Source: Bacteroidota bacterium
GTDB taxonomy: Bacteria; Bacteroidota; Bacteroidia; B-17B0; Aurantibacillaceae
Reading direction: 5' to 3'
NCBI GenBank assembly: GCA_018267475.1
Contig: JAFDYI010000012.1
Coordinates: 124,001 to 188,000, forward strand
DNA: 64,000 nucleotides
Each line of letters opens with the position of its first letter. The first letter of the stretch is position 1. Positions 25,314-30,730 of the stretch are shown here, piece by piece. The position numbers and the translations under genes were made by a program. The notes beneath the pieces are model-generated. The model was not told the DNA's origin and ran no database searches. It saw only the letters and a list, made by a program, of their open reading frames with translations.

Positions 25314-26747
25314 ATGAGTGAAAAACAATGCACGATAAAAAAAGCCGTTTCTCTTACCGGCGTAGGCCTTCATACCGGTAAAAAAGTAACCCTTACTTTT
25401 AACCCCGCTCCCGAAAACCATTGGTATAAATTTCAACGCATAGATTTAGAAGGACAACCCATTATTGAAGCCGATGCTGATTTGGTGGTAGATACCTCGC
25501 GCGGCACGGTGCTTGAAAAAAACGGCGCACGCGTTCACACCATCGAGCACGTACTGGCTGCCCTACGCGGATTGGAAATTGACAATTGCCTTATTCAAGT
25601 AGATGGCCCCGAAATGCCTATTATGGACGGATCTTCTATAAAATTTATAGAAGCGCTGGAGTTGGCAGAAAGGGTAGAGCAAAACGCCCCACGAGAATAT
25701 TTTGTATTAAAAAACAACCTCACTTACGAAGATACCGAAAAAAACGTAGAGATGCTTGCCGTGCCGCAAGAAACCTTTCGCACCACGGTAATGGTAGATT
25801 ACAACAGCGATATTTTAGGAACCCAACACGCCAGCATCTATGCCCTGTCTGAATTTAAAAAAGAAGTAGCCAACTGCCGTACCTTCGTTTTTTTGCATGA
25901 GTTAGAAATGCTGCTGCAACACAACCTCATAAAAGGCGGCGATTTGGATAACGCTATTGTACTGGTGGATAAAGAACTTCCAAAAGAAAAATTAGACCAT
26001 CTGCGCAAAGTATTTCACAAAGAAAAAGACCATATTGATGTAAAAAGAGGCGTATTAAACAATACCAAACTACACCACTACAACGAACCCGCCCGCCATA
26101 AATTACTAGACATTGTGGGCGACCTAGCTCTGGTAGGCAAGCCTATGAAAGTACATATATTAGCTGCGCGCCCCGGACATGCAGGAAATGTAGCCTTTGC
26201 AAAAAAAATAAAAGAGCTTATTAAAAAAGAAAAAAAAGAAGGAAACATCCCTCAGTACGACACCAGCGCCCCCGCCTTATACAACACGGTAGATATTATG
26301 AAAATACTACCGCACCGCTATCCTTTTTTACTGGTAGATAAGATTTTAGAACTTACGCCCCAATATGTAGTGGGGGTAAAAAATGTAACCTACAACGAGT
26401 TTTGGTGCCAAGGGCATTTTCCTGACGAGCCCATTATGCCGGGCGTTTTAATTATAGAAGCTTTAGCACAAACAGGGGGTGTACTATGCTTAAAAACCGT
26501 ACCCGACCCCGAAAATTATCAAACCTACTTTGTAAAAATAGAAAGCGCTAAGTTTAAAAACAAAGTAACCCCGGGCGATACGGTTGTTTTTAAAATGGAA
26601 CTAGCAGAGCCCATTCGTAGAGGGTTATGCCACATGAAAGGTACTGCCTATGTAGGTAATAAAATAGCAGCGGAAGCCGACATGATGGCGCAAATTGTAA
26701 AAGTAAGGGGCTTAGAAAAAAAAGTAATGGAAACCCAAAACGCCTAA
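25314..26747 (+). CDS. lpxC/fabZ: Bifunctional LpxC/FabZ
   Basis: A 477-residue fusion. Residues about 1-310 are LpxC, the zinc deacetylase that commits to lipid A: HTIEHVLAALRGL, IQVDGPEMPIMDGSS and the HKILDIVGDL-like RHKLLDIVGDLAL, with the HAARPGHAGN His. Residues about 325-470 are FabZ, a 3-hydroxyacyl-ACP dehydratase: LPHRYPFLLVDK (catalytic His), GHFPDEPIMPGVLIIEALAQ (catalytic Glu). The fusion is a known Bacteroidota trait and links use of hydroxyacyl chains for lipid A to fatty acid synthesis. Confidence 0.96.
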   Translation: MSEKQCTIKKAVSLTGVGLHTGKKVTLTFNPAPENHWYKFQRIDLEGQPIIEADADLVVDTSRGTVLEKNGARVHTIEHVLAALRGLEIDNCLIQVDGPEMPIMDGSSIKFIEALELAERVEQNAPREYFVLKNNLTYEDTEKNVEMLAVPQETFRTTVMVDYNSDILGTQHASIYALSEFKKEVANCRTFVFLHELEMLLQHNLIKGGDLDNAIVLVDKELPKEKLDHLRKVFHKEKDHIDVKRGVLNNTKLHHYNEPARHKLLDIVGDLALVGKPMKVHILAARPGHAGNVAFAKKIKELIKKEKKEGNIPQYDTSAPALYNTVDIMKILPHRYPFLLVDKILELTPQYVVGVKNVTYNEFWCQGHFPDEPIMPGVLIIEALAQTGGVLCLKTVPDPENYQTYFVKIESAKFKNKVTPGDTVVFKMELAEPIRRGLCHMKGTAYVGNKIAAEADMMAQIVKVRGLEKKVMETQNA

Positions 26748-27550: not shown

Positions 27551-30500
27551 ATGATAAAAAGATATTTTTTACTGATACTAATACCCTTTTTTGCACAAGC
27601 ACAAACAGAAGAATACCGTTCCACAGCGAACAGCTACTACTGGAAAAACCGAAAACCCTATGAGGGTTATTGGCAACAAGATGTGGATTACCACATAAAA
27701 GCAACCTTGCTGGATAGCCTGAATATTATAGACGGAGAGGAAACGCTAACGTATTACAACAACTCGCCCGACGAGCTGCCCTTCGTGTTTTTTCATTTAT
27801 ACAACAACGCGCAAGTAAAAGGCTCTTACCTGGCTGACTTATATAAAAACAACAACGTGCCGCTACACTTTGGGAAATACCGAGCCGCTGGCTTAGGTAC
27901 CGCAGTAGAAAGCATGCAGGTAAACGGGCAAGCCCTAAAAACCGAATTAGACAACACGGTACTGAAAGCTTGGCTTGCAGCCCCCCTTAAACCAGGAGAA
28001 TCCATCACCTTCAAGATAAAATTTAAAACCTATTTTGATAAAGAAACCATTCGCAACCGCATGAAAATGTACGACGCTTTCGGCTACAAACATTTTAATT
28101 TAGTACACTGGTACCCGCGCATATCGGTGTATGATAAAAAACAAGGCTGGGATACCGACCAACACATGGACCATGAGTTTTATGGTGATTTTGGAAAATA
28201 CCATGTGGAGCTTACGCTGCCCAACCATTATATAGGCGATGGCACCGGCGTATTACAAAACGAAAAAGAAGTACTGCCCGAAAGCCTTCGCAAACAAATA
28301 GACATCTCTAATTTCGCAAAAAAAGCATTCAACTCAGCCCCTTCAGAAATCATAAAACCCAATGGCACTTTTAAAACATGGATTTTTGACGCCATAAACG
28401 TACACGATGCCGCTTATACTTTTGACCCCACCTACCGCATAGCAGAAGTAATGCAAGGCAAAGTACGCTGCATTGCTTTAGCTCAGGAACAACACGCCGG
28501 CTATTGGCAAAACGCTGCCAAATACGTAGCTAAAGTAATAGAAACCAATTCAAAAAACATTGGTGAATACGCTTACCCGAAAATGATTGCCGCCGATGCC
28601 GACGATGGCATGGAATATCCTATGATAACCCTTGACGGGGGTTCTGACCCCGGCTATAGAGGCTTGTTTATACACGAAATATCGCACAATTGGTTTTTCG
28701 GAATGGTAGGCAGCAACGAAACCTACCGCGCTTTTTTAGATGAGGGCTTCACCCAATTTTATACCTGCGATGGTTGGGAAAACATTCAAGGAAAGTACAA
28801 CATCTATCCTAAAACAAAAAATGCCTATATACGCAACCATACCGATTCGGTGTATTATAGAGAAACCAACGCCTACTTACGCCACTTTGGCGATGTGTTG
28901 CGCGGAGATGAAACAACCCTAAATACCCACAGCGACGACTTTAATGGAGCCCTTGCCCATGGCGGCGGTTATAGCCAGGTATATATGAAAACAGTGGTGA
29001 TGCTGTACAACCTACGCTATGTGTTGGGCGATAGCCTTTTTAAAGCGGCCATGCAAAACTACTTTAACCAATGGAAAATGGGCCACCCGTACCCAGAAGA
29101 TTTTAGAAACTCCATCATTCAATTTACGCACAACGACCTAAACTGGTTTTTCGACCAATGGTTGGAAACGGCCAAAACAATAGACTATGGCATAAAACGA
29201 GTAAAAAAAATAAAAGGTGTAAACAACCAATATGCTATTACCCTAAAACGGTATGGTCGCATGCAAATGCCTGTTGATTTTACGGTAGAAACAACTATGG
29301 GCGAAAAACTACATTACTACATTCCCAACACCTGGTACGAAAAGAAAACAACAGCTACCACCCTGCCTCGCTGGATAGGATGGGGTAAAGTAAAACCTAC
29401 CTACACAGCCACTATTACTATACCACAGGGAAAGGTGCGCAACGTAACGCTTGATACAGCACATGTTTTTCCAGATGTGAACCCGCTAAACAATTCGTAC
29501 AAAAAAAACATAACACTGCGTTTTGATTCTAAAATTTACAACCCGCCCAACCGCAACAAATACCAAGCCTTTTTGCGCCCTGCCCTTTGGTGGAACGGCT
29601 ACGACGGAGCGCAAGTAGGAATAAACGTAAACGGCAGCTACATGAATTACAAACATATTTTTGACTGCACCTTATTTTTAAATACCGGCTTAGGGCAAGC
29701 TTTTTTGCCGTATCGCGCTTCTGTAAACAGCCACGACCCCTTAGCCTTTATGGTTAGCTATAAAACAGCCACCGATAAATTTATGAAAAAATCGGCGGTA
29801 TATGCCAGCGTACGCTACCTAAATGGATTAGGTGCAGGCTTGGTCGGTTTTGAACGAAAAAGTAATAACGAAAAATGGCGTTTTTATGCACAACTAAAAG
29901 CCATGCAACGTTTTGATACCAGCGCTCTCAACTACCTTATTTACCGTGGCGAGTGGAGCAGTGTAAAAAATATGAACAGCGCTGCTTCGGCCGGCGCCGA
30001 TTATCACTACGCCTACAAAAGAGGTATCGGCTTCATCAATATACATGTACGCACCCCCTTCTTAGGCGACTACAACTACTCGTATGTGTCGGGCACGGCT
30101 ACAAACAAAACGTATTTTGGTAAAGTAGGTTTGCATACCCGTTTTTTTATACAATATGGCATCGGAACCAACGTTCCTAAAGAATCCATGTTGTACGCCG
30201 CCGGTGCTAACCCCGAAGAATTGATGGATAGCAAATATACACGAGCTATGGGTATCTTCCAGCCCTTTAGCTTTGGAGCTACTACCACTAATGTAAATTT
30301 TGCAGCGGGTGGAGGCTTAAATTTACGCGGCTATATGGGCTACCTGTTGCCCAGTGTAGATAGCAAAGGCAATTACCACTATAATTACCAAGGCACCAGC
30401 GGGGCAGCCGTTAATGCCGAGTTGGATTTCAGTCGTTTTTTTAACTTTATATCCAAAGCCAGCAAGCAATCAGTGGCTTTTGGTACCTATCTGTTTGGCG

Positions 30501-30730
30501 ACGCCGGCGTAATGAATACCAGCAATCCCAATAGCGCCCTTACCCTATCTAGCGTAATGGTAGATGCCGGCATAGGCACCACCTTTACCATACAGCGTTG
30601 GTGGAAATTGCAAGGAATAAAACCCCTTACCATCCGTGCCGACTTCCCTCTTTTTGTAAACCACTTGCCTTACGTAGAGAGCAATTATTTTCAGTTTAGA
30701 TGTATGATTGGAATTAGCAGGGCTTTTTAA
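27551..30730 (+). CDS. Exported M1-type metallopeptidase with C-terminal barrel-like domain
   Basis: A 1059-residue protein. Signal peptide (MIKRYFLLILIPFFAQAQ), then an M1 aminopeptidase-like region: the substrate-binding loop is DDGMEYPMI, and the zinc site is HEISHNWFF (His375, Glu376, His379) with the third ligand Glu398 in FLDEGF, exactly the HExxH-x18-E spacing. Residues about 650-1059 contain no peptidase motifs and are rich in alternating aromatic strands. They include GGGLNLRGY (RGY at 926-928) and end in Phe (GISRAF), features of outer-membrane barrels, the RGY one of the Omp85 type. This suggests a peptidase anchored in the outer membrane by its own barrel. It is last in the lpx transcript. 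Confidence 0.82.
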   Translation: MIKRYFLLILIPFFAQAQTEEYRSTANSYYWKNRKPYEGYWQQDVDYHIKATLLDSLNIIDGEETLTYYNNSPDELPFVFFHLYNNAQVKGSYLADLYKNNNVPLHFGKYRAAGLGTAVESMQVNGQALKTELDNTVLKAWLAAPLKPGESITFKIKFKTYFDKETIRNRMKMYDAFGYKHFNLVHWYPRISVYDKKQGWDTDQHMDHEFYGDFGKYHVELTLPNHYIGDGTGVLQNEKEVLPESLRKQIDISNFAKKAFNSAPSEIIKPNGTFKTWIFDAINVHDAAYTFDPTYRIAEVMQGKVRCIALAQEQHAGYWQNAAKYVAKVIETNSKNIGEYAYPKMIAADADDGMEYPMITLDGGSDPGYRGLFIHEISHNWFFGMVGSNETYRAFLDEGFTQFYTCDGWENIQGKYNIYPKTKNAYIRNHTDSVYYRETNAYLRHFGDVLRGDETTLNTHSDDFNGALAHGGGYSQVYMKTVVMLYNLRYVLGDSLFKAAMQNYFNQWKMGHPYPEDFRNSIIQFTHNDLNWFFDQWLETAKTIDYGIKRVKKIKGVNNQYAITLKRYGRMQMPVDFTVETTMGEKLHYYIPNTWYEKKTTATTLPRWIGWGKVKPTYTATITIPQGKVRNVTLDTAHVFPDVNPLNNSYKKNITLRFDSKIYNPPNRNKYQAFLRPALWWNGYDGAQVGINVNGSYMNYKHIFDCTLFLNTGLGQAFLPYRASVNSHDPLAFMVSYKTATDKFMKKSAVYASVRYLNGLGAGLVGFERKSNNEKWRFYAQLKAMQRFDTSALNYLIYRGEWSSVKNMNSAASAGADYHYAYKRGIGFINIHVRTPFLGDYNYSYVSGTATNKTYFGKVGLHTRFFIQYGIGTNVPKESMLYAAGANPEELMDSKYTRAMGIFQPFSFGATTTNVNFAAGGGLNLRGYMGYLLPSVDSKGNYHYNYQGTSGAAVNAELDFSRFFNFISKASKQSVAFGTYLFGDAGVMNTSNPNSALTLSSVMVDAGIGTTFTIQRWWKLQGIKPLTIRADFPLFVNHLPYVESNYFQFRCMIGISRAF

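Follow-up and report, generated by a model that had tools for sequence, protein, structure and literature searches.

Among the genes of the window (the whole stretch of 64,000 nucleotides analysed here) is one whose product is, with a probability that we put at about 0.68, a two-domain outer-membrane protein in which an M1 zinc peptidase, probably periplasmic, is joined in one chain to a C-terminal barrel of Omp85 type that would have a task of its own. We rate this as a new domain architecture within a known superfamily, Omp85, the mechanism being one that we infer. The reading frame is intact and specifies 1059 amino acids plus a stop (Table 1). Conservation figures refer throughout to an alignment of 62 sequences, in which the relatives are 49-75% identical to the window protein. 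In one same-genus orthologue (L089; G006:C101:3675-6833) an in-frame TAG interrupts the late part of the barrel, for which an error in sequencing, readthrough or a gene that is broken are the alternatives.

Table 1. Features of the gene and of its predicted product, with positions in the window
Feature	Position	Strand	Basis
Whole gene: M1 peptidase with C-terminal Omp85-like barrel (predicted)	27551..30730	+	Intact ORF; most genomes of the order have a full-length relative
Sec signal peptide, ~residues 1-18 (MIKRYFLLILIPFFAQAQ), without lipobox Cys	27551..27604	+	Direct reading; similar N-terminus in relatives
M1 N-terminal beta domain, ~residues 44-308	27680..28474	+	AlphaFold2 secondary structure; Foldseek to IRAP/ERAP1, ~650 columns
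GMEYP (353-357), presumed counterpart of M1 GAMEN	28607..28621	+	Glu355 invariant
Peptidase_M1 catalytic region, residues 373-539	28667..29167	+	PF01433
Zinc site HEISH (375-379) to Glu398, HExxH-x18-E	28673..28744	+	Invariant in 62/62
Tyr478, putative catalytic Tyr of M1	28982..28984	+	Invariant in 62/62
All-beta domain III, residues 546-634, without POTRA pattern	29186..29452	+	DSSP of model
Omp85-like 16-strand barrel (predicted), residues 671-1054	29561..30712	+	Full-length and barrel-alone models; fold search; profile match to TamL, E=8.5e-4
GGGLNLRGY (920-928), L6 loop between strands 11 and 12	30308..30334	+	AlphaFold2 position; R926 and G927 invariant in 62/62
YLFGDAG (980-986) on strand 13	30488..30508	+	Aligns with FVDAGNIW of TamL; D984 invariant
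Terminal Phe1059, BAM-signal-like	30725..30727	+	Phe last in 61/62 relatives

That the protein has an intact M1 zinc site, with Glu398 as third ligand at x18 spacing, had been stated in the preliminary description, and direct reading, the Pfam match and invariance all confirm it. Peptidase_M1 (PF01433) matches residues 373-537 (E=3.4e-14; 53.4 bits against a cut-off of 27.7), and H375, E376, H379, E398, Y478 and E355 are each invariant in the alignment. From its position, and from knowledge of the M1 family, we take GMEYP to stand for GAMEN and Glu355 to be its exopeptidase glutamate. The full-length AlphaFold2 model, built with 62 sequences (pLDDT 85.1, pTM 0.83), matches IRAP and ERAP1 in a Foldseek search with E-values to 2.9e-21, and in it the place of their helical domain IV is taken by the barrel. 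HExxH-x18-E is present in 98 of 105 sequences examined; the other seven are five proteins considered below (G441, G465, G040, G037 and G581), a sequence that is cut by a contig end (L212, for that reason rejected as a peptidase-less copy), and one, L207, that proved to be the wrong stretch, neither of these last two being used. With zinc ligands preserved in almost every member, the peptidase is clearly of use as well, and the M1 part would be active as such.

What of the C-terminal region, for which an outer-membrane barrel had been proposed? M1 structures dominated the fold search with the whole protein, so a separate model of the barrel was made and used as query, and 16 strands, the number for which the preliminary description had suggested looking, were again predicted (pLDDT 78.8). 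All 50 of the PDB matches listed are Omp85 proteins (BamA, including that of Flavobacterium johnsoniae, TamA and FhaC), with E-values down to 7.9e-8, and their moderate TM-scores, about 0.36-0.51 by query length, fit a remote Omp85 member with long loops, membership not being proven by them. Neither an ERAP-type helical domain nor soluble Ig domains, the folds that had been named as speaking against a barrel, appear in the prediction. In the AlphaFold2 model strands 1-8 are at residues 671-682, 686-697, 701-711, 731-740, 748-757, 760-770, 776-786 and 808-822, and strands 9-16 at 825-839, 844-856, 859-871 and then, following a loop of 79 residues, 951-959, 975-989, 1003-1014, 1026-1036 and 1051-1054. 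The RGY at 926-928, earlier likened to the VRGF/Y-type loop of Omp85 proteins, does sit in the L6 position, residue 928 being Y or F across the alignment, and the terminal Phe, earlier likened to a BAM signal, is shared by nearly all relatives. Conservation of the zinc site, RGY and terminal Phe across 62 sequences means that these features are not due to chance.

The sequence profile of the barrel matches Bacteroidota TamL barrels significantly (Table 1), and better than TamL matches BamA with similarly small profiles (E=6e-3), and its comparison with BamA profiles was insignificant (E=0.19). Neither of the Omp85 HMMs PF01103 and PF19143 matches the gene; Pfam has nothing on residues 655-1059 here and, across 44 relatives, nothing meaningful; hints of a barrel from NCBIfam all stay below threshold and are weak and inconsistent, none of its models recognising the barrel. 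PDB sequence searches, whether the query was the protein or the barrel profile, yielded no relative of the barrel, a search of a viral fold library was uninformative, and no POTRA domain is present in the model, the domain ahead of the barrel being all beta. Lack of a barrel HMM match had been named beforehand as counting against a barrel; it is what was found, and the fold search is judged to outweigh it. Models and fold matches together support a C-terminal region that is an Omp85-type barrel.

The M1-barrel fusion is not a one-off. Within the order 62 of 65 genomes encode the barrel, and so do 152 of 296 drawn from the class, its frame in both sets being nearly always 1050-1120 codons, i.e., fused to M1. 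A phylum-wide draw gave 55 genomes of 296 with the barrel, and as many class members in that draw lack it, the family, though common, is patchily distributed. The assignment to a lipid A transcript just after lpxA was right as to adjacency, lpxA ending 10 bases upstream of the gene in the window, but the arrangement is not conserved: outside the window, lpxA was seen directly ahead of the gene in just two genomes of the genus (L005/L087 and L088), and upstream of the gene in L085 and L089 no lpxA was found. The adjacency being confined to some members of the genus, we read the lipid A transcript as a local gene-order feature and discarded the lipid A link as a clue of general value. Elsewhere a recurrent neighbourhood is nadC-yihY (17/80 and 15/80 loci). 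Between lpxD and lpxA in the window, a single 477-residue frame (25314-26747) joins lpxC to fabZ, a fusion that is usual in Bacteroidota.

The barrel also occurs without the peptidase. Outside the class, though within the phylum, genes of 400-470 codons with their own signal peptide encode the barrel alone, and the stand-alone and fused barrel profiles match over 357 columns (E=7e-37). RGY and the strand-13 Asp are invariant in the stand-alone barrels, for which the match to the TamL profile was insignificant (E=0.15). In the genomes G441 and G465 a separate barrel gene of ~445 codons (L196:317-1651 and L197:372-1703) lies directly after nadC and yihY, which is a usual site of the fused gene in relatives; this is an apparent natural loss of the peptidase domain. 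The rest of these two genomes, each ~95% complete, yielded no close M1 copy, and survival of the lost peptidase as a separate gene was rejected because the nearest M1 proteins are only 31-33% identical and a similar protein of ~630 residues is present also in a fused relative, G045. In G040 a remnant of ~200 residues, without the zinc motif, precedes the barrel. The proteins of G037 and G581 (L203:119-3205 and L211) are full-length, their zinc ligands are gone, the former falls below the Pfam M1 cut-off, and they are apparent pseudo-peptidases. Barrel motifs and terminal Phe are kept in all five complete cases. Given the stand-alone barrels and this repeated loss of peptidase or zinc site with retention of the barrel, the barrel seems to serve a function in its own right.

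On which side of the outer membrane would the peptidase be? With 16 strands both ends of a barrel are on one side, and in characterised outer-membrane barrels that side is periplasmic. An even strand count with L6 outside puts the N-terminus in the periplasm, and with this the connections in the AlphaFold2 model agree, the would-be extracellular loops (3, 19, 2, 21, 4, 79, 13 and 14 residues) being longer than the would-be periplasmic turns (3, 7, 5, 2, 2, 15 and 11). The patatin enzyme domain of PlpD, the type Vd model, was shown in 2024 to stay periplasmic (PMC11116518). Taken together, the number of strands, the lengths of the loops and the precedent of PlpD make it most likely that the peptidase is under the outer membrane and inside the envelope, as opposed to on the cell surface. 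The preliminary description had favoured a peptidase passenger in a layout parallel to type V systems; in such a reading the barrel would export or display M1 on the cell surface, where it would digest external peptides. An N-terminal enzyme followed by a C-terminal barrel is indeed the layout of autotransporters, and protein translocation is known for Omp85 relatives of TpsB type (PMC4104836), but we consider a surface protease improbable. Type Va proteins have 12 strands and a helical linker through the pore, whereas here there are 16 and no such helix is predicted; the M1 domain would need to cross the membrane unfolded; and PlpD, the very parallel that had been drawn, keeps its enzyme on the periplasmic side (PMC11116518).

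Might the barrel nevertheless be a mere anchor, a closed and inactive plug, with only the periplasmic peptidase of consequence? The near-universal zinc site would suit that reading, as would the slower evolution of M1 than of the barrel in two intact relatives (59% vs 40% and 50% vs 28%). Yet a barrel that exists alone in another class, and that at its own locus outlives the peptidase or its active site, makes a mere anchor rather unlikely. Far less credible again is an ordinary soluble M1 peptidase whose C-terminal region, Ig-like or ERAP-type helical, has been misread; in its favour, no barrel HMM matches above its cut-off, but two models give a 16-strand barrel, the fold matches listed for it are all Omp85 and there is no helical C-terminal domain.

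For the preferred reading, a periplasmic M1 peptidase with an Omp85-type barrel, the following is proposed. After Sec export, BAM would fold the C-terminal part into the 16-strand barrel with RGY in L6, and the zinc peptidase would stay in the periplasm, tethered beneath the barrel via all-beta domain III, where it could trim peptides or polypeptide N-termini on the inside of the outer membrane. More than an anchor, the barrel would keep an Omp85-type task, that of assisting something to enter or cross the membrane, and it is the part retained where the peptidase is lost. What the computations show is the domain layout, the zinc site, the Omp85 fold, where the L6 motif lies, the conservation and the repeated loss of the peptidase; we infer the periplasmic side, the peptidase's activity and the task of the barrel. 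More tentatively, the proteins may constitute an unrecognised Bacteroidota Omp85 subfamily in which the periplasmic M1 cooperates with a substrate-inserting or translocating barrel, for example by trimming clients delivered to it or released from it, the barrel being ancestral and the peptidase an optional module.

The same genome encodes a paralogue of 995 amino acids (L002:1447-4431; G000:C5:40446-43430) that is 33% identical over query residues 39-692, has an intact HEVGH and ~365 further C-terminal residues without RGY, and is widespread in relatives. The profile of its C-terminal part matches that of the stand-alone barrels (E=1.4e-5) and, weakly, that of the window family (E=1.1e-3), and it may represent a second M1-barrel subfamily. 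A further frame in that genome, of ~1150 codons (G000:C18:30489-31373), matches Omp85 (PF01103) in part of its length and is possibly an enzyme-Omp85 fusion.

How does the architecture compare with what is known? The Omp85 superfamily was defined by its barrel in the survey by Heinz and Lithgow (2014), in which there are ten bacterial subfamilies or architectures, some of them POTRA-less and none with M1 (PMC4104836). The survey's 'metalloprotease' group is that of PF00149, a phosphoesterase fold (PMC4104836), so the 'Metallo' subfamily has a metallophosphoesterase where the protein here has an M1 peptidase. The stand-alone relatives found here resemble the 'noNterm' class of that survey, barrels lacking POTRA. 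BamA, TamA/TamL and FhaC share with the window protein the 16-strand C-terminal barrel, RGF/Y in L6, the strand-13 Asp and the fold matches; unlike it, they have POTRA where it has a peptidase, and PF01103 and PF19143 miss it. With the type Vd patatin-Omp85 proteins PlpD and FplA it shares an N-terminal enzyme and an Omp85 barrel in one chain, and for PlpD the periplasmic side on which M1 is here placed, but theirs is a patatin lipase, here it is an M1 zinc peptidase, and POTRA is absent from the window protein. With M1 aminopeptidases (ERAP1/IRAP, PepN, ColAP, LTA4H) it has in common the N-terminal and catalytic fold, HExxH-x18-E, the catalytic Tyr and GxME; the helical domain IV of ERAP1/IRAP and PepN is replaced by a membrane barrel and GAMEN by GMEYP. 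No description of an M1-Omp85 protein was found in the full-text literature searched, a scope outside which lie subscription journals and cellular predicted-structure databases, so that prior annotation is possible. Term searches of the 2025 paper on the structure of the F. johnsoniae BAM complex turned up nothing on a peptidase.

Bacteria, mitochondria and chloroplasts all have Omp85 proteins that build their outer membranes. To the ten bacterial architectures of the 2014 survey is added one that standard HMMs miss and that is yet present in roughly every second genome sampled from the class, an architecture in which a zinc peptidase is coupled to a barrel of BamA type. As there are natural lineages that have the barrel and are without the peptidase or its zinc ligands, the division of labour between the two parts is directly testable.
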